This document shows, in pieces, positions 4,166 through 55,517 of a stretch of DNA of 64,000 nt. The DNA is from Qipengyuania soli (GTDB lineage: Bacteria; Pseudomonadota; Alphaproteobacteria; Sphingomonadales; Sphingomonadaceae). The notes below the pieces were generated by a model. It was given only the letters and a program-made list of their open reading frames with translations, ran no database searches and had not been told where the DNA came from. Within the stretch, counting starts at the first letter, position 1. Each line of letters starts with the position of its first letter. Made by a program: the position numbers and the translations under genes. The stretch spans positions 2,356,001-2,420,000 of the forward strand of contig NZ_CP064654.1 of assembly GCF_015529805.1 (NCBI RefSeq). The letters run 5' to 3'.

Positions 4166-4819
4166 TCAGCCGACCGCGCTGACCTCGCTGTCGTCTTCCT
4201 GCTTGCGGCGGCGGCGGCGCGGCGCGGGTTTTTCCTCGCGGTCGTCGTCGTTCGAGCCGAATGCGGGCGGCAGGACGGTTGCGTCGATCTCGCCTTCCAC
4301 GCCCGCTTCGCCTTCCGCGTCTTTGCGCGGGCGACGCTGGTTGCGGCGCTTTTTCGGCTCATTGTCCGAGCGGCGGGTAAACGGGTTGTCGGCCGGTTCG
4401 AAATCGCTGTCGTCGCCGTCGCTGTCCTGCACGTCGTCGTCGCGTTCGTCACGGTCGTCGCGATCTTCGCGGCGGCTACGCTGGCGGCGGTTGTCGCTGC
4501 GGCCGCGACGGTCGTCGAAACCGTCATCGCCATCATCGTCACGATCGTCGCGGTCGTCCTGGCGCTTGCCCTTGGCTTCGTCCTGGCGCGCCTTGTTGTC
4601 GGCGATCACGCGGAAATAGTGGTCGGCGAACTGCAGGTAGTATTCCATCTGCACCCGGTCGCCGTTGTGTTGCGCATCCTGGGCCAGCTTCTTGTACTTG
4701 TCGAGCAGCTGCGGGGCATTGCCACGCGCGCGGCTGTCGATGCGGTTGGCATTGTTGCCGCCGCCCTGGTTGCGATTGTTCCCGCGTCCGCGACGACGGT
4801 TATTGCGATTGTTGTTCAA
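4166..4819 (-). CDS. DUF4167 protein, highly charged, probably RNA-associated
   Basis: The 217-residue protein starts with an Asn/Arg-rich stretch (MNNNRNNRRRGRGNNRN) and then shows the DUF4167 core at about residues 30-90, recognisable by the QLLDKYKKLAQDA, GDRVQMEYYLQFADHYFRV segments. The rest is almost entirely alternating Asp/Arg, Lys and Glu low complexity. DUF4167 is widespread in alphaproteobacteria and its function is not settled; the composition suggests nucleic-acid binding, which is inference. It follows prmC on the same strand after about 230 non-coding bases that hold a small CTGGCC/GGCCAG hairpin (5006-5020) and no clear gene. Confidence 0.8.
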   Translation of the reverse strand: MNNNRNNRRRGRGNNRNQGGGNNANRIDSRARGNAPQLLDKYKKLAQDAQHNGDRVQMEYYLQFADHYFRVIADNKARQDEAKGKRQDDRDDRDDDGDDGFDDRRGRSDNRRQRSRREDRDDRDERDDDVQDSDGDDSDFEPADNPFTRRSDNEPKKRRNQRRPRKDAEGEAGVEGEIDATVLPPAFGSNDDDREEKPAPRRRRRKQEDDSEVSAVG

Positions 4820-5051
4820 GGGTTACCTGTCCTCATAAATGACGCGGCGCGAATTCGCTTGGAAATGGCTGCGTGACCCCTTGCACGACCGCGAACATCG
4901 CCAGTCGTGTGCCCCAGTCTTGTGCATGGTATGCGAGGCCGAAGCCGCGCACCGTAACTGCATATTTCGGAGCTCAGGCCGGCGGGTCGAGCATGTCGCG
5001 CACCACTGGCCTGCGGCCAGAGGTAGAGGGTCGAATCGGCTTTGCCAAGTC

Positions 5052-5879
5052 TTATCTGAGAATCAGTGCACGCGGACGTCCGCCGAGGTCGTGACGGAGT
5101 TCGGATTCAAACCCCGAGTCGCGTGCGATGGCCGCGACGCTATCTGCTTGAGTCGCGCCGATTTCGAGCACCGCGATGCCATCCGGCAAAAGGAGCTTGC
5201 CAAGCTGCGGGATGATCGCGCGATAGTCGTCAAGGCCTTCGGGGCCTGCGAATAGCGCGCCGGCCGGTTCATAATCGCTCACATCGGGATCGAGAGCGGC
5301 ATCGTCCTCGACGTAAGGTGGGTTGCAGAGGACGAGGTCGAACTGTCCCAGCCCAACGGTCCAATCCTCTGCCAGCCAGGAATCGAGGCGAAACTCCGCC
5401 CGTTCCCCGAGACCCAGGCGATCGGCATTGCCTCGCGCAACTGCGATTGCCGCTTCGGAGGCGTCCATCCCCAGCCCCCGCGCCGCCTCGCGCTGGCTGA
5501 GGAATGCCAGCAGCAGGGCGCCCGTACCCGTGCCCATGTCGAGCACCCGGCCGGCGGATGGTGCGGCCTCCAGCGCCGCCTCCACGATTGTTTCGCTGTC
5601 GCCACGGGGGATCAGCGTATCCGGCGTTACCGCGAGTTCGAGACCGAAAAATTCCTGCCGTCCGAGGATATGCGCGACCGGCTCGTGGCTGGAACGCCGT
5701 TCGACGAGGTCGGGGAACACGGCTGGCGCAGCATCGCGCATTGCTTTCAGCAGCATGTCCGAACGCGCGATGCCCAGCGCATGCGCCATCAGCAATTCGG
5801 CATCGAGCCGGGCGGTATCACTGGTCTTGGCAAGGCGCTCTGCTGCAGCGCGGATCGCTTCGCCGACCGTCTCAGTCAT
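5052..5879 (-). CDS. prmC: peptide chain release factor N5-glutamine methyltransferase
   Basis: PrmC methylates the glutamine of the GGQ motif in release factors RF1 and RF2, using S-adenosylmethionine. In this 275-residue protein the SAM-binding motif I is DMGTGTGAL (114-122) and the substrate-binding NPPY motif is at 186-189. An N-terminal helical domain precedes them, as usual. The start overlaps the 3' end of prfA, its own substrate gene, by eight bases, so the pair is translationally coupled within a hisS-prfA-prmC operon. Confidence 0.96.
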
Positions 5880-6939
5880 TCATCGCGGCGAGCCGCTTGG
5901 CTTCGTCCTCGGCGATCAGCGCGTCGACCAGTTCGCCAAGGCCGGGCCCGGCGATGATCTGCGGCAGCTTCTGCAGCGTCAGCCCGATGCGGTGGTCGGT
6001 CACGCGGCCTTGCGGGAAATTGTAGGTGCGGATGCGTTCGGAACGATCGCCCGAACCGACCATCGCCTTGCGCGCCGCGGCTTCTTCGCCATGCGCCTCT
6101 TCGCGCATCTTCTCGTAAAGACGCGCGCGCAGCACCTGCATGGCCTTGGCCTTGTTCTTGTGCTGGCTGCGCTCGTCCTGCTGCGTCACCACGAGGCCCG
6201 ACGGCAGGTGGGTGATGCGCACGGCGGAATCGGTCGTGTTGACGTGCTGCCCGCCCGCGCCGCTCGCGCGGTAGATGTCGATCTTGAGGTCCTTGTCCTC
6301 GATCTGGACATCGACCTCATCAGGTTCGGGCAGGACGGCGACCGTCGCGGCCGAGGTATGGATGCGCCCGCCGCTTTCCGTCTCGGGCACGCGCTGGACG
6401 CGATGCACGCCACTTTCGAACTTCAATTTGGCGAAGACCCCGTTGCCGGTGACGTTGGCGACGATTTCCTTGAAGCCGCCGACCTCGGACGCATTCATGC
6501 TGACCGGCTCGACGCGCCAGCCCTGTTCGGCGGCATAGCGTTCGTACATGCGATAAAGGTCGCCCGCGAACAGTGCCGCCTCGTCGCCGCCGGTCCCGGC
6601 GCGGATTTCGAGCATGGCCGGACGGGCATCGGCGCTGTCCTTGGGCAGCATGGCGATGGCAAGTTCGCGCTCGGCCGCGGGAAGGCGCTGGCGCAATTCG
6701 GCCAGTTCCTCGTCCGCCAGCGCCTTCATCTCCGGGTCTTCGGTCAGGACCGAGAGTTCGGCGATTTCGGCGCGGATCTCCTTTACCTCGCGCGCGACCT
6801 TGGCGACCGGCTCGAGCTCGGCATAGTCGCGGCTCGCCTTGACGAACTCCTCGCCTTCGAGCGTACCCGAAGCCATTCGCGCCTCGAGCTCGGCAAAGCG
6901 ATGGGTGATCTGGTCAAGGCGTTCAGCGGGTATGCTCAT
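5872..6939 (-). CDS. prfA: peptide chain release factor 1
   Basis: RF1 terminates translation at UAA and UAG. The 355-residue protein carries the codon-reading tripeptide PET (185-187, the PxT form that marks RF1 rather than RF2) in [18 protein letters not shown], and the peptidyl-tRNA hydrolysis motif GGQ at 229-231. Length is standard. It lies two bases downstream of hisS and overlaps prmC, so the three translation genes form one compact transcription unit. Confidence 0.97.
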
Positions 6940-48467: not shown

Positions 48468-49103
48468 TTACTGCTCCAGCGTAGCGGCGGCGCATTTCTC
48501 GGCCGTGGCCTGGTCTTCCCCGCCGTCGAGATAGGCGATGGCGACGAAGCCGGCGATCACCAGCGCCACGAAGCCCACGGTCACGAGGCCGAGGTACTTG
48601 TCGATGAAGCGCTTGATCGGGGCACCGAACATGCGGAACAGCACGCCCACGATCATGAAGCTGATCGAGCGGGAAACGATGCTGGCAAGGATGAAGGGCA
48701 CCAGCGCCATGCCGATGAAGCCCGCGGTGATGGTAAGCAGCTTGAACGGGATCGGGGTCGCGCCCTTCACGATCAGGATCTCGACCCCGTATTCGCGCAG
48801 GTAGCACGCCGCGACCGGGAAACTCTCCGACAGGCCGAGCCAGCGCAACAGGTCCGCCCCGATGGTATCGTAGAGACCCCAGCCGATCGCATATCCGAGG
48901 AGGCCCCCGGCGACCGAGGCCAGCGTCGCGATAACCGCGAAGCGGATCGCCTTCTTCGGCTCGGCAAGGCACATCAGGCCCAGCAGCGGGTGCGGCGGGA
49001 CCGGGAAGAAGCTCGCCTCGATAAAGGCGAACATCGCCAGCCACCATTCGGCATGCGGGTGGGACGCCTTTTCGAGCGTCCAGTCGTAGAGCTTGCGCAG
49101 CAT
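48468..49103 (-). CDS. YqaA/DedA-like membrane protein
   Basis: The 211-residue protein starts at MLRKLYDWTLEKASHPHAEWWLAMFAFIEASFFPVPPHPLLGLM. It matches the VTT/SNARE-associated (YqaA) family: the FFPVPP re-entrant segment, a GGLLGYAIGWG helix and the KGATPIPFKLLTITAGFIGMALVPFILASIVSRSI segment. DedA-family members are lipid scramblase or transport-like; the specific role is not known. A longer frame starts at 49169. Confidence 0.85.
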   Translation of the reverse strand: MLRKLYDWTLEKASHPHAEWWLAMFAFIEASFFPVPPHPLLGLMCLAEPKKAIRFAVIATLASVAGGLLGYAIGWGLYDTIGADLLRWLGLSESFPVAACYLREYGVEILIVKGATPIPFKLLTITAGFIGMALVPFILASIVSRSISFMIVGVLFRMFGAPIKRFIDKYLGLVTVGFVALVIAGFVAIAYLDGGEDQATAEKCAAATLEQ

Positions 49104-49202
49104 GGTCTGGTGAAATTCCTCGCGTCCCGTGGTCCCTTGCGGACTAGGCGAGCATCCCGGCGTAGGCAAGCGCGACTGAATAACCTATTTGGTTCTTTTT
49201 GA

Positions 49203-49334: not shown

Positions 49335-49958
49335 ATGGGCAAAGCCAAGTCTGGCGACCGCCATGCCTGGGAAGCGCCTTTCCTGAAGGCGCTCAGGAAG
49401 TATGGCTCGGTCAAACGCGCAGCCAGCGCAGCCGGGATCACCACCGGACCCGTCTATAACCGGCGCCAGCGCAGCGAGGAGTTCGTCGAAGCTTGCACGA
49501 AGGCCCGCGAGGCTTTCCATGCCAATGGCGGCAGGGTCATCCGCAACAGCGCCGACAAGCCAGCACCACGGCAGTGGAAGCGTACTTTCCTCGACATGCT
49601 GGCGGAGACTTCCAACGTCACCGCTTCGGCCAGCGAAGCCAATGTCTCGGTGCGCGAGGTCTATCGCACCCGGCGGTCGGACGAGGATTTCGCGGGCGAG
49701 TGGCGCACGGCCCTCTTCGAAGGCTATGCCAATCTGGAAATGGAGGTGCTCGGCTTCCTGCGCGATCCGGCTCCGACCCGGAAGCTGGATGTGGCCGCGG
49801 CGCTGCGCCTGCTGACCGCGCACAAGGATACTATCGCCACCGAGCGAGCGGCCCGCGCCAATGTCAGCGCCGCGGAAGTGCGCGCCTCGATCGAGCGCAA
49901 GGTCGAGATTTTCCGCCAGCAGGTCGCCGCCGAACAGGCGCGCAAGGCCCGTGACTGA
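49335..49958 (+). CDS. GTA small-terminase-like HTH protein
   Basis: This 207-residue protein occupies the first position of sphingomonad GTA clusters, just before the large terminase. It has two helix-turn-helix-like segments (FLKALRKYGSVKRAASAAGITTGPVYNRRQRSEEFVEAC and FLDMLAETSNVTASASEANVSVREVYRTRRSDEDFAGEW) and a C-terminal helix (VRASIERKVEIFRQQVAAEQARK). Two HTH units suit a DNA-recognition component of packaging. GCGGGAGG lies just upstream of the start. Its last bases overlap a GTG that would start the large terminase. Confidence 0.75.
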   Translation: MGKAKSGDRHAWEAPFLKALRKYGSVKRAASAAGITTGPVYNRRQRSEEFVEACTKAREAFHANGGRVIRNSADKPAPRQWKRTFLDMLAETSNVTASASEANVSVREVYRTRRSDEDFAGEWRTALFEGYANLEMEVLGFLRDPAPTRKLDVAAALRLLTAHKDTIATERAARANVSAAEVRASIERKVEIFRQQVAAEQARKARD

Positions 49959-50388
49959 CTTGAGCGGCAGGCCGCGCCTGTTCTCGCAGGCCTCGTGCGA
50001 TCTCACCGACAGCTTCGTTGCCGGACTGGACCAGAAGGAAAAGGACGAATGGTCGTTCGACTTCGCCAACACCGCGCACGACGGGCAGCTACCACCGTCG
50101 GGCGACTGGCGGACCTGGCTGATCATGGCCGGACGCGGTTTCGGCAAGACGCGAGCAGGGGCCGAATGGGTCCGCTCGCTCGCCGAAGCGAACCGCCATG
50201 CGCGTATCGCACTGATCGGCGCGAGCCTGGGCGAGGCGCGCAGCGTCATGGTCGAGGGCGAGAGCGGCATCCTTGCCTGCTCGCCGCCCGAACGGAGACC
50301 TGTTTTCGAACCTTCCTTGCGGAGGCTGCGCTGGCCCAACGGGGCCGAAGCGATGCTCTGTGGCGGATCTATCGCAGCGATGGAGTGA
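49951..50388 (+). pseudogene. truncated GTA large terminase (TerL, N-terminal fragment)
   Basis: Only about the first 140 residues of the packaging ATPase remain. GDWRTWLIMAGRGFGKTRAGAEWVRSL carries the Walker A GRGFGKT (61-67), and RIALIGASLGEARSVMVEGESGILA and EPSLRRLRWPNGAEAM match GTA ORFg2. After GAEAM the homology stops, and the frame runs 9 more codons to a TGA at 50386-50388. The Walker B, motif III and RNase-H nuclease parts of an approximately 450-residue TerL are gone, so it cannot package DNA. Start at GTG overlapping the previous gene. Confidence 0.85.
50345..50365. other. deletion junction within the GTA cluster
   Basis: TerL homology in one frame ends at NGAEAM (about 50341-50356) and GTA ORFg13 homology (LWRIYRSDGVTLGFTTHD) begins in the next frame at about 50358. 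This collapses the interval normally holding the rest of g2 through g12. GCGATGCTCTG at the junction could be shared by both parent sequences, as the ORFg13 N-terminal segment and TerL both tend to read Ala-x-Leu here; that is inference. Confidence 0.7.
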
Positions 50389-51128
50389 CGCTCGGCTTCA
50401 CCACGCATGACCGCGACCTCCTCTTCGACGGGGTGCTGCATCGGGCAGCGCCCGGCATGCTGCCCTCGGCGATCCGCAAGACGATCGGGTTCTCCGACGA
50501 CGAGAGCGAAGTAGAGGGCGCAATCTCGCACGCCGCCATCCGCGAGGAGGACCTGGTCGCGGGCAGGTATGACGGAGCTCGCGTCGAAAGCGGCATCGTC
50601 GACTGGCAATCGCTCGAAACTGCCACCCTGCACGGCGGGTCGATTGGTTCGGTATCGCAGGAAGGCGGGAAGTTCGCCGCCCAGCTGCGCTCGGCCAAGG
50701 CCGACCTCGATGTCGATCCCGTGCCGCTTTCCAGTCCGACCTGTCGCGCAAGCTTCTGTGGCCCGGAATGCGCGTTGAACCCGCTCGATCACGAGACGCG
50801 CACGACAATCCGGTCGGTGGACCCCGATGCCAACAGGATCGCGACCGAAGAGGCCGACCACTCCGGATATTCCTTTGGCACCGTGACCTTCCTCGATGGG
50901 ACGATGGCGGGACTTTCCGCGCGGATCATCGCCACTTCGCAGGTAGGGCTAACACTCGACCGTCCGGTGGACCCGGCTCTGGCAACCGGAGCAAGGGTGA
51001 AGCTTCGCGAGGGCTGCGACAAGACCATCGCCACCTGCACTGGTCGCTTCGACAATGCCTGCAACTTCCGTGGCGAGCCATTCCTGCCCGGCAACGACAT
51101 GCTGGCCCAGTATCCCATGCCGCGATGA
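50385..51128 (+). CDS. GTA ORFg13-like tail protein (DUF2163), N-terminally truncated
   Basis: This is the DUF2163/BR0599-type protein of RcGTA-like tails. TLGFTTHDRDLLFDGVLHRAAPGMLPSAIRKTIGFSDDESEVEGAI begins the recognised part, and CRASFCGPECALNP and CDKTIATCTGRFDNACNFRGEPFLPGND give the C-terminal DUF2163 cysteine-rich segments. The deletion removed about 20 N-terminal residues. GTG at 50385 overlaps the TerL fragment's TGA as GTGA, so reinitiation could still make a 247-residue protein. Whether it is made is untested. Confidence 0.75.
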   Translation: MTLGFTTHDRDLLFDGVLHRAAPGMLPSAIRKTIGFSDDESEVEGAISHAAIREEDLVAGRYDGARVESGIVDWQSLETATLHGGSIGSVSQEGGKFAAQLRSAKADLDVDPVPLSSPTCRASFCGPECALNPLDHETRTTIRSVDPDANRIATEEADHSGYSFGTVTFLDGTMAGLSARIIATSQVGLTLDRPVDPALATGARVKLREGCDKTIATCTGRFDNACNFRGEPFLPGNDMLAQYPMPR

Positions 51129-51541
51129 CCCTTGCGGAAAACTTCGCCAGAGAGGCGGAGAAACTGGTCGGCACCTCGTTCAGGCTGCGAGGGAGGAATC
51201 CGGCAACTGGTCTCGACTGCGTCGGACTTGTTTCCTGCGCACTCTCTGCAGCGCGGGGATGGGTGAAAACCCCCGAGGGCTATGCGTTACGTAACGCAAC
51301 GTTGGAGCCCTATCTCACCTTCGCTGGGCGAAATGGTTTCGAGATCGCGGTCGGGCCAATCGTTCGGGGCGACCTGCTGCTGGTCCGGCCCGGTCCTGCA
51401 CAAACGCACCTGGTGGTTGCAACTTCACTGGATCGCTTCGTGCACGCTCATGCAAGCTTGGGACGCGTCGCGATCCATGCCGGCACGCTGACCTGGTCCA
51501 TCCACCGACACTACCGGCTCCTGCCCCTAATCGAGGAATAG
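51125..51541 (+). CDS. GTA NlpC/P60-family peptidase (ORFg14-like)
   Basis: A 138-residue peptidoglycan-peptidase-like protein. The active-site cysteine is C32 in GLDCVGLVSC, the histidine is H95 in AQTHLVVAT, and HAHASLGRV gives a further polar residue, matching the NlpC/P60 order. In RcGTA this protein helps cross the cell wall. ATG overlaps the g13 stop as ATGA. The catalytic triad appears intact though the head genes are gone. Confidence 0.88.
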   Translation: MTLAENFAREAEKLVGTSFRLRGRNPATGLDCVGLVSCALSAARGWVKTPEGYALRNATLEPYLTFAGRNGFEIAVGPIVRGDLLLVRPGPAQTHLVVATSLDRFVHAHASLGRVAIHAGTLTWSIHRHYRLLPLIEE

Positions 51542-51544
51542 ATC

Positions 51545-53734
51545 ATGGCGACCGTCGTACTCACCACGCTGGGCTCGCTCTTCGGAGGACCGCTTGGCGG
51601 CGCAGTCGGAACGCTCATCGGTCGCCAGATAGACGGCGCCATCATCAGCGGCCCAAAAAGCGAAGGTCCGCGCCTGAAGGACCTCGCCGTTAGCACTTCG
51701 AGCTATGGCCAGCCGATCGCCCGTCATTATGGCAGCGTGCGCGCTGCCGGGACCGTCATCTGGGCGACCGACCTCAAGGAGACGAAGCAGAAATCCGGTG
51801 GCGGCAAGGGACGCCCCTCGAGCACCTCCTATGTCTACAGCGTCTCCTTCGCGGTGGCGCTTTCGAGCAGACCGATCGAGGGGATCGGCCGCATCTGGGC
51901 CGATGGCAATCTATTGCGAGGCTCGGGCGGCGACCTCAAGTCATCAGGTGCCCTGCGCATTCATTCCGGCCATGGGGACCAGCGACCAGATCCCCTCCTG
52001 GCGGCCGAGCTGGGCGACAAATGCCCGGCTCACCGCGGCTGCGCCTATGTTGTTTTCGAAGACCTTTCTCTGGCCGATTTCGGCAATCGCATTCCCGCCC
52101 TTACATTCGAAATCCTCGCCGGTGATGGAGCCGGGCTGCTCCCGGAGATGGTCGGAAATCTCGGTTCCGTAGATACATCGGCACTGATGGATCAGCTCAA
52201 AGGCTACAGCCATGACGGTGGCAGCCTTGCCGGCGTGCTGGCGCAGGTCGACCGATTGAAACCGGTCGTTCCGCTTTATCGGGGAGGCGCATTGCGGCTT
52301 GCCGGGAGCAGCACGGCGGAACAGATGACCAAGTCCCTCCCGCCCCCCGCGACTTGGGATCAGGGTGAATTTGGTCGCGAGGACGGGCGTGCTCGCGCAC
52401 GCGGATCGCTGACGGCCAATGCTCTATCGGCCCTGCGGTACTACGATCCCGCGCGCGACTATCAGCCGGGCATGCAGCGGGCTGAGGGAGGTGCCACAGC
52501 CACACAGAGAAGGACATTGGAGTTCCCCGGCGTCCTGTCTGCTCAGGACGCGCGCATGCTGCTGCGTGAGGCCTCCATGCGAGAAGCAATTGGACAGGAA
52601 ACACTGTCCTGGCGGGTCGCACAACTCGATCCTGCGTTGGGTCCGGGTTCGAAGGTAAAGGTGCCCGGTATTCCCGGCACATGGCGAGTGGCGGAATGGG
52701 AGTGGCGAGGCGCTGGCATAGAATTGCAGCTTGTCCGCCATCTCCAACAGGGCGCATTCCATGCGGTGACTTCCGACCCCGGCGACGGCTGGCATCCACC
52801 GGATCGTGAGATCGGGGCCACGAGCCTCCGCGTCTTCGAGTTGCCTTGGGACGGACACGGATCGAATGAAGAGGTCCGCATCTTTGGGGCAACCAGCGCG
52901 CCCGCTGGCCCCTGGGCCGGGGCAGCGCTGTTTGCGCAGCAAGGTACCGCGCTCGAACCTGTCGGCAATAGCGGGCCGTCCCGCGCCACGACTGGCAAAC
53001 TCCTCCAGCCATTGGAACCCAGCCCTGCACATCGTTTCGAACAGGCAGCATCGCTGCTGGTAAAGATGCTGGACCACAGTTCCGAACTGGTCTCGACCGA
53101 CTCTGCAGGCCTGGCACGCGGGGTCAACCGGATGCTGGTTGGCGAAGAAGTGCTGCAATTCGCCCAGGCCGAACCCCTCGGTGAAGGCGAGTGGAAACTG
53201 ACCGGCCTCCTTCGCGGTCGCGGCGGGAGTGAACGGCCCGCGCTTGCCGGACATGCGGCAGGCAGCGAAGCAACACTTCTGGACGAGGATTTATTGTTAC
53301 TGCGTGTCGATCTGCCAGCGCTGGCCGGCAGCACCGAGTTTGCAGCGATCGGACTCGCCGAGAGCGAACCCGTGAAGGCTTCGCTGGAGAACCAGGGAGC
53401 AAGCAGGCGCCCTCCCAGCCCGTGCCACGGCTGCGTCCGGCATACTGACGACGGCGCCCTGGCCATTTCCTGGACCCGAAGAGCCCGCGGTGGCTGGATC
53501 TGGCAAGACGAGGTCGAACAGCCCCTCGTCGAACGGCAGGAACTTTACGAAGTCGGGATCGGTCCGCCTTCGGCACCCTTGCGGTCGTTTACTACCCCGA
53601 CCCCGGATCTGGTCCTTGGGGCTGCGACCTTGGCCGATCTCACCGCGACGCACCCCGATAGCCCGATCTGGGTGAGGCAGTGCGGCGACTACAGCAAATC
53701 ACAACCGCTAATGCTCGGCCACTTGGCCGGGTAA
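51545..53734 (+). CDS. GTA host-specificity/tail tip protein (ORFg15-like)
   Basis: The 729-residue protein starts ATVVLTTLGSLFGGPLGGAVGTLIGRQIDGAIISGPKSEGPRLKDLAVSTSSYGQPIARHYGSVRAAGTVIWATDLKET, the hallmark of GTA ORFg15. It lies three bases after g14. RcGTA ORFg15 is about 1300 residues with a central TIM-barrel-like domain; that domain is not recognisable here. Many sphingomonad versions may be of the shorter kind, so I cannot say it is truncated. The frame is open throughout. Confidence 0.8.
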   Translation: MATVVLTTLGSLFGGPLGGAVGTLIGRQIDGAIISGPKSEGPRLKDLAVSTSSYGQPIARHYGSVRAAGTVIWATDLKETKQKSGGGKGRPSSTSYVYSVSFAVALSSRPIEGIGRIWADGNLLRGSGGDLKSSGALRIHSGHGDQRPDPLLAAELGDKCPAHRGCAYVVFEDLSLADFGNRIPALTFEILAGDGAGLLPEMVGNLGSVDTSALMDQLKGYSHDGGSLAGVLAQVDRLKPVVPLYRGGALRLAGSSTAEQMTKSLPPPATWDQGEFGREDGRARARGSLTANALSALRYYDPARDYQPGMQRAEGGATATQRRTLEFPGVLSAQDARMLLREASMREAIGQETLSWRVAQLDPALGPGSKVKVPGIPGTWRVAEWEWRGAGIELQLVRHLQQGAFHAVTSDPGDGWHPPDREIGATSLRVFELPWDGHGSNEEVRIFGATSAPAGPWAGAALFAQQGTALEPVGNSGPSRATTGKLLQPLEPSPAHRFEQAASLLVKMLDHSSELVSTDSAGLARGVNRMLVGEEVLQFAQAEPLGEGEWKLTGLLRGRGGSERPALAGHAAGSEATLLDEDLLLLRVDLPALAGSTEFAAIGLAESEPVKASLENQGASRRPPSPCHGCVRHTDDGALAISWTRRARGGWIWQDEVEQPLVERQELYEVGIGPPSAPLRSFTTPTPDLVLGAATLADLTATHPDSPIWVRQCGDYSKSQPLMLGHLAG

Positions 53735-53756
53735 CTTCGCCTTGAAGGATCATACC

Positions 53757-54212
53757 GTGACCGAATTTGTCAGCTTTCCAGAATCCACCGCCCGATATTC
53801 ATTGCCATTTCTTGTCGCAGGACAGGCCCAGAAGGAATTTTTCGTCAACGAGGCGCTCGAACGTCTCGATATACTTCTTCATCCGGTGGTCGAAGGCGAG
53901 GTCTGCGATCCGCCTTCCTCCCCGCAAAAGGGGCAGGCTTACCTTGTAGCTACGCCTGCGACAGGAGCCTGGATTGGTCAGGAGGATCGTATCGCCGGAT
54001 GGGACGGTAACCAATGGACCTTCATCGACCCGACCGCGCAAATGAATGTCTTTGATAAGAATCTCGGGCGTAGACGGTGTTTTCGCGAAGGATGGAATCT
54101 GCCGCCGGAGCCGGTGCTGCCGACGGGTGGTTCGACCATCGACAGCGAGGCGCGCGAGGCGATCGAGACCATTGTTGAACTCCTGCAACAGGCCGGACTC
54201 ATATCATCGTAA
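53757..54212 (+). CDS. DUF2793 protein at the end of the GTA remnant
   Basis: This 151-residue protein matches DUF2793 (RYSLPFLVAGQAQKEFFVNEALERLDILLHPVVEGE...PPSSPQKGQAYLVATPATGAWIGQEDRIAGWDGNQWTFIDP), a tail-associated domain commonly last in sphingomonad GTA clusters. I start at GTG (53757), with GAAGGA seven bases upstream; a TTG at 53742 is an alternative. The C-terminal 40 residues are a linker and a helix. Probably a tail fibre or surface-binding module. Confidence 0.8.
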   Translation: MTEFVSFPESTARYSLPFLVAGQAQKEFFVNEALERLDILLHPVVEGEVCDPPSSPQKGQAYLVATPATGAWIGQEDRIAGWDGNQWTFIDPTAQMNVFDKNLGRRRCFREGWNLPPEPVLPTGGSTIDSEAREAIETIVELLQQAGLISS

Positions 54213-54335: not shown

Positions 54336-54364
54336 TTGCCACTGTAGGGGTTGAAAGTTAGATA
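54336..54364 (+). promoter_or_regulatory. candidate promoter of ompA
   Basis: TTGCCA (54336-54341), 17 bases, then TAGATA (54359-54364) precede the ompA start by 44 bases. The -35 is close to consensus and the -10 is weak. GGGGAA lies eight bases before the ATG. Confidence 0.4.
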
Positions 54365-54407
54365 TCTTCCACTCGGTGGCTCTAATTCGCAAAAAGGGGA
54401 AACAATA

Positions 54408-55517
54408 ATGCGGAAATTCGTCATAGGTATGGCGATGGCCTCTACGGCACTTGCATCGCCCGCCCTCGCCAAGGAAGACAGCTGGTATGTCGGCGTCGAG
54501 GGTGGTCCGAGCATCGTTGAGGATATCGATTTCAACGTCGACGACGGCGCTAGCTCGCTCGGTGTCGATTTTGACACCGGCTACGACTTTGGTGGTTTCA
54601 TCGGTTATGACTTCGGCGCCTTCCGTCTGGAAGCAGAAGTCCGTTACGCCGGTGCCAACCCGAACACGCTGATCGTGAATGGCCCGACCACCCTGGGCGG
54701 TGGCAGTGTCATCGGTGCCAACCAGTATGAAGTCGCCGACGGTGAACTCACCTCGCTGGCATTCATGCTCAATGGCCTGTTCGATTTCGGTCCCGATGAC
54801 GGCCTCCAGGGCTTCGTCGGCGGCGGTATCGGTGTGGCTCGCACCAGCCTCGACACGGTTGTCGGCGTTCAGCAGGCCTTCGATGATTCGGACAGCGGTC
54901 TGGCATGGCAGGTTCTCGCGGGTATCCGCGCGCCCCTGACCGACAACATCGACGTTGGCCTCAAGTATCGCCTCTTCACTGCCGAAGACGTGACGCTGGT
55001 CGACGTTGCTGGTCGTTCGCTGAACGACTCGATCCGCAGCCACTCGCTGCTCGGTACGTTCACCTACAACTTCGGCGAGCCGCCGGCACCTCCGCCGCCG
55101 CCCCCGCCGCCGCCGCCCCCGCCGCCGCCTCCCCCCCCGCCGCCGCCGCCGCCGCCGGCTCCGGTCTGCGAGCAGGGTCCGTACATCGTCTTCTTCAACT
55201 GGGACGAATCGGACATCACTCCGGAAGCAGCGACGATCCTCGACAACGCGGTTTCGGCCTACGCCAACTGCGGCACCGCCGCAGTCATGCTGGCCGGTCA
55301 CACCGACACGTCGGGTTCGACGGCTTACAACATGGGCCTCGCCGAGCGTCGTAACTCGTCGGTCCGTGGCTACCTGACCTCGCGTGGCATTCCGGATGGC
55401 CGGATCTCCAGCGAAGCCTTCGGTGAATCGCAGCTGCGCGTCCCGACGGCGGATGGTGTCCGCGAACTCCAGAACCGTCGCGTGGAAATCACCTACGGTC
55501 CGGGTTCGGGCATGTAA
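54408..55517 (+). CDS. ompA: OmpA-family outer-membrane porin with polyproline linker
   Basis: A 369-residue precursor. Signal peptide MRKFVIGMAMASTALASPALA, an 8-stranded barrel (about 23-222), then a linker with 23 consecutive prolines (228-250), and an OmpA peptidoglycan-binding domain (about 253-365: NWDESDITPEAATILDNAV, AGHTDTSGSTAYNMGLAERRNSSVRGYL, with the diaminopimelate-binding D and R). It links the outer membrane to peptidoglycan. It has its own promoter and terminator. Confidence 0.95.
   Translation: MRKFVIGMAMASTALASPALAKEDSWYVGVEGGPSIVEDIDFNVDDGASSLGVDFDTGYDFGGFIGYDFGAFRLEAEVRYAGANPNTLIVNGPTTLGGGSVIGANQYEVADGELTSLAFMLNGLFDFGPDDGLQGFVGGGIGVARTSLDTVVGVQQAFDDSDSGLAWQVLAGIRAPLTDNIDVGLKYRLFTAEDVTLVDVAGRSLNDSIRSHSLLGTFTYNFGEPPAPPPPPPPPPPPPPPPPPPPPPPPAPVCEQGPYIVFFNWDESDITPEAATILDNAVSAYANCGTAAVMLAGHTDTSGSTAYNMGLAERRNSSVRGYLTSRGIPDGRISSEAFGESQLRVPTADGVRELQNRRVEITYGPGSGM
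55089..55157 (+). repeat. polyproline codon tract (CCG/CCC/CCT repeat)
   Basis: Sixty-nine bases of proline codons only, 23 in a row, mostly CCG with CCC and CCT. This is a low-complexity tract, prone to slippage in replication and to ribosome stalling, which EF-P relieves. Confidence 0.9.

Follow-up and report, generated by a model that had tools for sequence, protein, structure and literature searches.

The closest described systems are the RcGTA-like GTAs (alphaproteobacterial type I), with which the locus described here shares the gene order terS, terL, portal, capsid, tail genes, g12-g15, and DUF2793, and phage and GTA models of Pfam and NCBIfam match its genes. Compared with these GTAs, the window, i.e., the analysed stretch of 64,000 nucleotides from Qipengyuania soli, retains only terS, a part of terL, a part of g13, g14, g15, and DUF2793. 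The latter corresponds to a GTA tail fibre protein according to PMC10883770, in which GTA loss is described for many alphaproteobacterial lineages, cheater lineages are proposed as one cause, and incomplete clusters are left out of the data set.

In relatives of Q. soli, the locus is affected by a deletion joining terL to DUF2793, which is referred to as J152. Repeat- or microhomology-mediated deletion resembles J152 in being an internal deletion of several kb with one junction, but no repeat is present at the J152 sites of 30 intact clusters and no microhomology was seen in the window. Breaks by serine recombinases and homing endonucleases leave two-base staggered joints and occur at conserved positions of phage genes such as terL. 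J152 is alike in its presumed two-base staggered joint, but its sites lack a shared core. As in the GTA-loss survey of PMC10883770 loss is recurrent in case of J152, but a base-exact recurrent junction is not described in the consulted passages of that survey. A description of a recurrent exact GTA deletion was likewise not found in the open-licence literature, including the consulted passages of PMC9836097, PMC10883770, PMC9662315, and PMC3338782; due to the fact that subscription journals lie mostly outside this literature, absence is not proven. J152 removes the GTA core base-exactly, recurring across genera in the absence of homology; unlike the deletion of the window, it is not ordinary.

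The remnant cluster of Qipengyuania soli

The Q. soli genome (G000) consists of one contig of 2,910,044 bases, is 100% complete, and contains the window at positions 2356001-2420000. The cluster (Table 1) has the order terS, terL codons 1-135, g13, g14, g15, and DUF2793 tail-fibre gene. The terL gene starts with the GTG at 49951, which overlaps the terS stop. Its homology covers residues 2-135 of the 440 residues of an intact relative and stops at 50358, followed by out-of-frame residues up to the TGA at 50386-50388, and the match to Pfam Terminase_6N (PF03237) comprises positions 1-83 of 215. Homology to g13 extends from 50358 to 51125 in the +1 frame relative to terL, starting at residue 18 of the query, which has 273 residues and its first Met at residue 3. 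The original prediction of a terL gene that retains Walker A and about 140 residues before shifting frame into g13 near 50358 is borne out by these data. The overlap that it described between the terL stop and an in-frame g13 GTG at 50385 is seen as well, and a restart of g13 at this GTG is possible, as far as sequence alone can tell. The genes terS, g14, g15, and DUF2793, which were not listed in that prediction, are still open frames.

Table 1. Features of the GTA remnant and its flanks in the window (positions refer to the window)
Feature	Position	Strand	Evidence and remarks
Flank gene, presumably of the DedA family	48468..49169	-	tblastn synteny; borders the GTA locus on its left in most relatives
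terS, GTA small terminase, open	49335..49958	+	phrog_4044 terminase small subunit, E 2.3e-17; 68% identity to L092 terS
Truncated terL, N-terminal part with Walker A	49951..50388	+	PF03237; homology to intact relative; Walker A from translation
Deletion junction with frame shift, from terL codon 135 to codon 18 of the g13 query	50357..50360	+	sequence comparison with relatives
g13, baseplate hub, TIGR02218, without approximately the first 15 codons	50358..51128	+	TIGR02218, 199 bits; residues 18-273 of the intact-relative query
g14, NlpC/P60 peptidase, open	51125..51541	+	PF00877; TIGR02219 below cut-off; L092 g14 residues 7-139 of 143
g15, baseplate multidomain protein, open	51545..53734	+	NF048004, 360 bits, under the cut-off of 800; intact-relative g15 matches nearly full length
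DUF2793 tail-fibre gene, full length	53742..54212	+	PF10983; 3' partner of the J152 deletion in relatives
Flank gene, which we take from its sequence to be OmpA-like	54351..55517	+	synteny; right border of the GTA locus

In close relatives, intact clusters likewise lie between DedA and OmpA and include the genes that Q. soli lacks, which supports the predicted internal deletion. In case of the reference intact cluster L092 (genome G071), whose genes were named with Pfam and NCBIfam, approximately 10.4 kb lie between the points homologous to the two sides of the Q. soli junction, in good agreement with the "about 10 kb" originally estimated. Portal and capsid genes, for which a search in the rest of the genome had been proposed, gave no match to PF04860 and PF05065, respectively, anywhere in G000 in a profile search, and the only Terminase_6N match of the genome is the truncated terL of the window. 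This genome-wide absence covers portal, capsid, and a second Terminase_6N, not the tail genes. Due to the completeness of the genome in one contig, the missing genes are not located on another contig. The locus fails as a functional RcGTA-like cluster, with terL truncated and no portal or capsid match in the genome, and it qualifies as an RcGTA-like remnant by the homology and order of the remaining genes and by its place between DedA and OmpA.

The suggestion that GCGATGCTCTG represents microhomology at the junction did not hold. The terL side reads ...CTCT and the g13 side GTGGCGG, and six relatives have G instead of T directly before GTGG at the start of g13; in comparison with these, no microhomology was seen at 50358-50360. 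According to the best explanation, one deletion of about 10.4 kb joined terL codon 135 to approximately codon 18 of g13 by end joining without visible homology, which eliminated the remainder of terL, portal, capsid, and the majority of the tail genes. The deletion in G000 is observed, and a frame-shifting internal deletion appears as the simplest account of the junction, with the reservation that a join made by the assembler cannot be excluded without reads. The window is best read as a dead RcGTA-type cluster with a real deletion that is ordinary in kind, and from the gene content it is inferred that Q. soli is unable to make GTA particles from this locus.

Within the genus, this locus has undergone many independent collapses, including the one of Q. 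soli. Its rpoB sister G015 (SH-aLRT 98) carries J152 and keeps terL codons 136-152 without g13-g15, and G000 shows the reverse. The two deletions are incompatible and therefore independent.

The GTA locus across the genus and the J152 junction

The locus was read in 60 genomes of the genus, among them Qipengyuania aquimaris, Q. intermedia, Q. proteolytica, and Erythrobacter sp. SD-21 and AP23. The gene set is kept in 28 genomes and the cluster is collapsed or lost in 29, and three (G006, G013, and G074) cannot be judged because their contigs end. Among the 29 lost clusters, 11 carry J152 and two (G029 and G062) have nearly the same junction, located at the J152 place but shifted. The remaining 16, including Q. 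soli, show other junctions or no remnant. These other junctions are scattered, e.g., terL 354 to g15 651 (G080), portal 80 to g13 59 (G066), portal 170 to DUF2793 112 (G036), and terS 151 to DUF2793 50 (G030).

The count of 28 intact clusters includes some in which the adaptor is unmatched, one (G077) on two contigs, and three in which a gene is covered by two matches, namely the portal of G017 (L123, 11856-12985) and the capsid of G016 (L122, 8415-9543) and G035 (L125, 7863-8931). The latter three are otherwise full clusters, and the split matches perhaps reflect an early stage of decay or a sequencing error. In L112 of G001 (4471-6710), separate deletions occur at terS 107, portal 328-364, capsid 248-378, and from g12 448 onward, so that this cluster, in contrast to J152, collapsed stepwise. 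DNA matches to the start region of terL in L232 (G083) and L233 (G006) are weak (E of approximately 4e-4) and were rejected as chance, as none of the GTA and flank proteins used gave a match there.

Comparison of loci also revealed uneven similarity along the cluster. Portal, capsid, and tape measure of L117 (G005) and L092 are 94-97% identical, with only 42% identity for terS and 68% for terL, and the terS-terL block may have been swapped between lineages. L111 (G021) and L117 are 97.5% identical in the region of the terL piece (terL'), with rpoB approximately 10% apart; by this comparison, the GTA locus appears to have been exchanged recently between the two species.

In J152, terL is joined after codon 152 (...Gln-His-Ser-His-Ala, before Trp-Cys-Asp-Glu) to approximately codon 20 of DUF2793 (Ala-Gly-Gln-Ala-Gln-Lys-Glu), which removes about 13.8 kb by the coordinates of L092. 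It is the commonest collapse and occurs base-exact and in register in 11 of the 60 genus genomes. In all 11 junctions the DUF2793 piece (DUF2793') stands in +1 relative to terL', and an in-frame terL-DUF2793 fusion product was rejected on this ground.

Outside this sample, a GTDB scan with the terL piece of the window gave 281 relatives, of which the best 80 were kept. The terL152-DUF2793 join is present in 20 of these best 80, 18 of them not already in the genus set. Carriers include Erythrobacter longus, E. crassostrea, E. ani, E. rubeus, Novosphingobium aquimarinum, N. cyanobacteriorum, Allopontixanthobacter sediminis, Croceicoccus mobilis, Altererythrobacter lutimaris, and Aurantiacibacter rhizosphaerae. 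A third set comprised 397 family genomes, 309 of which have the terL piece; 20 of the 27 places listed outside the genus, with frames of less than 400 residues, were examined. Except for L311, which ends at the junction, L316, which is cut elsewhere, L317 with a full-length terL, and L321, which joins g10, all of these loci (16 of 20) carry the J152 join, five of them being the same records as loci already named. Since the family and GTDB sets were chosen by terL likeness or a short frame, no frequency of J152 can be derived from them.

After removal of duplicates, 42 distinct J152 loci remain, of which 39 share the register (37 by regular expression and two, L098 and L153, by eye); L107, L224, and L152 do not fit. 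In L141 (8357 onward) and L321, read against the usual intact sequence, terL is broken within approximately two bases of the J152 point and joined to g13 or g10. These breaks with other partners suggest that the terL point is itself a break hotspot. Enrichment of J152 genomes in the residues QHSH was also considered, but is absent (33 of 39 J152 versus 67 of 82 intact).

Distribution, age, and effect of J152

On the rpoB tree (55 genomes), J152 is scattered among intact genomes. G021 is located by the intact G005, G014 by the intact G016 and G069, G070 and G076 group with the intact G035 and G078, G034 and G028 with the intact G031, and G020 is located by the intact G032; the other J152 genomes are G015, G019, G022, and G081. 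In the trees of the terL N-terminal and DUF2793 C-terminal parts, G021, G014, G070, and the G034-G028 group keep the same sisters. In case of G076, DUF2793' is placed beside G035 and terL' is that of another lineage. A single clade of J152 genomes was rejected in the AU test for terL' (p 1.5e-5), DUF2793' (p 5e-43), and rpoB (p 9e-70), and parsimony on rpoB gave 10 changes of the J152 state. The trees stem from "quick" searches and were seen before the clade test was made, and the species tree is based on rpoB only, for 55 of the 60 genomes.

Contig ends were checked in eight genomes, selected for terL contigs that stop or are broken off early. The MAG of L149 (G471) has a terL contig ending with ...AGCCATGCCTG and a second contig that shares an overlap of exactly 141 bases with it and extends into DUF2793; we infer that such an overlap results from a fork met by a de Bruijn assembler. 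G315 has one contig with the end ...CATGCCTG and another with the start GCCGGGCAGG; in G472 (the MAG of L179, the same genome as G223), one ends with ...AGCCATGC and another starts with TTGCCGG. In all three, the ends fall on the last or first base that would be common to intact and J152 alleles, and on this ground an insertion at the junction was set aside as their cause. The intact branch was not found in the three assemblies, and coexistence of intact and J152 alleles in these samples is an inference. The terL contigs of G303 (residue 164, with a 99-base overlap into intact terL), G233 (near 144), G474 (374), and G475 (365) break elsewhere, which cautions against over-reading contig ends; in G473, terL is collapsed in another way.

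No stop was found in terL' codons 30-148 in 48 genus copies, and among 50 copies of DUF2793 stops occur only in G022, which has two. For terL', dN/dS between J152 and intact genomes is 0-0.20 in eight of nine pairs and 0.28 in the pair G076-G035, whose terL genes belong to different lineages, compared to 0-0.14 between intact genomes. The corresponding values for DUF2793 are 0.07-0.24 (J152-intact) and 0.13-0.31 (intact-intact). The J152 copies are young or still constrained, and given their scatter over the tree we read them as young. Portal, capsid, tail, and the remainder of terL are missing from the J152 product, and with these genes GTA production from the locus is lost. Only this loss of production genes is observed; that the cells are GTA non-producers ("cheaters") that keep the flanks is inferred from it. 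A cheater lineage in the sense of PMC10883770 would make no GTA and yet still be able to receive GTA DNA.

Formation of J152 and competing explanations

According to our best reading, the locus has an unexplained, position-exact deletion hotspot in relatives of Q. soli. J152 would most likely form repeatedly as a sequence-directed deletion, in which the two sites come together and are joined in the absence of homology. The dinucleotide at the junction reads either like the terL side (CT or GT) or like the DUF2793 side (TT, TC, or AC), and may represent what a two-base staggered joint would leave. Among 37 junctions, the dinucleotides are TC (12), CT (11), TT (8), GT (4), CC (1), and AC (1), with a Fisher p of 6e-4 that is post hoc and uncorrected for kinship.

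In 30 intact clusters, neither homology between the two breakpoints (mean z 0.0, -0.3, and -0.8 at ±5, ±10, and ±20 bases) nor a core sequence shared by both sites was detected, and DNA cofolding of the two sites gave no pairing signal relative to neighbouring windows (z -0.23, sd 0.81). Deletion between direct repeats or microhomologies was discarded, as these clusters have no repeat at the J152 sites and none was seen at the junction of the window. Filing J152 under conservative site-specific recombination was rejected too: the fixed product register is met by 39 of the 42 distinct loci, but the shared-core test fails. Phage records yielded nothing close (nine records, covering at most 8% of the query), and 80 viral contigs with a terL C-terminus have no DUF2793 match in the fetched stretches, which thus speak neither for nor against excised circles. 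Such precision without an identified enzyme, repeat, or base pairing is a point against recurrent formation, and it also counts against it that no locus combining the DUF2793 breakpoint with another 5' partner was noticed, although such loci were not systematically sought. It is possible, if on the whole doubtful, that the locus contains two built-in sites, one in terL before Trp-Cys-Asp-Glu and one at the DUF2793 start, between which an unknown enzyme repeatedly and exactly removes the core, so that producers become non-producers in natural populations, as a programmed or enzyme-driven off-switch for gene transfer.

Alternatively, J152 may have arisen once, either as an old allele persisting beside the intact one (producers versus cheaters, perhaps under frequency-dependent selection) or as one moving between species by homologous recombination of very short tracts, with flanks replaced locally. 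We consider this unlikely, without being able to dismiss it: the single register of 39 of 42 loci is also expected from common descent, the contig ends of three samples hint at both states, recombination would be aided by the two conserved coding blocks next to the sites, and some spread of J152 by this route cannot be excluded because the locus recombines between species (G021/G005). One old allele should have left shared silent bases near the junction, which are hardly seen. Third-position identity in the four junction-side codons of terL is 0.64 among J152 alleles, slightly higher than the 0.60 among intact ones, with 0.63 for mixed pairs, and in case of DUF2793 it is 0.49, 0.52, and 0.50, respectively (no significance test was made), so that no clear sign of a junction neighbourhood derived from one allele is apparent at the sequence level. 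In G021 and the intact G005, the last 60 terL bases before the junction are identical and the first 60 DUF2793 bases differ by one mismatch, and thus crossovers almost at the junction itself would be needed. Divergence near the junction is no higher than elsewhere in G014-G016 and G070-G078. Moreover, the junction bases resemble one of the two sites, 5' or 3', more than a single ancestral pair, and in L141 and L321 terL was broken at this place as well, with different partners. It counts against repeated formation that several J152 genomes have no close intact sister and that terL' and DUF2793' of G076 belong to different lineages. Observations in case of J152 are its fixed register, its scatter over the trees, and the lack of homology; its independent formation is inferred, and repeated formation, which is favoured over a single origin, is probable within the best explanation taken jointly.

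Selection on the exact J152 product would explain the precision if several unrelated deletions were retained for its usefulness, with a shortened TerL or a DUF2793 piece with a new start blocking packaging or tails. This would fit the lack of stops in terL' and, except for G022, in DUF2793', as well as the low dN/dS of terL'. We consider such selection quite improbable, as terL' and DUF2793' are mutually out of frame and a three-base shift, which is not seen, would serve equally; furthermore, several J152 genomes have ACG in place of the possible ATG at the junction, DUF2793' of G022 is interrupted by two stops, and a recent origin explains the low dN/dS equally well, with intact pairs showing similar or somewhat lower values. 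An assembly error or a strain mixture instead of a real deletion is suggested by the few draft assemblies that break at the junction and can hardly be credited: J152 is located inside long contigs of many separate assemblies, including five genus genomes of one or three contigs (G014, G015, G020, G028, and G070), and the one-contig genome of Q. soli has a different junction and no portal or capsid match anywhere.

The production of GTAs is costly and its loss is expected; what is not expected is a loss that takes place repeatedly by the same exact cut. Should J152 instead be an old shared allele, its occurrence as a polymorphism in several genera would still be remarkable. If J152 forms by a dedicated or enzyme-driven route, it would provide a single DNA mark by which GTA non-producers could be counted in genomes and metagenomes, and the question of producers versus cheaters would become directly testable.
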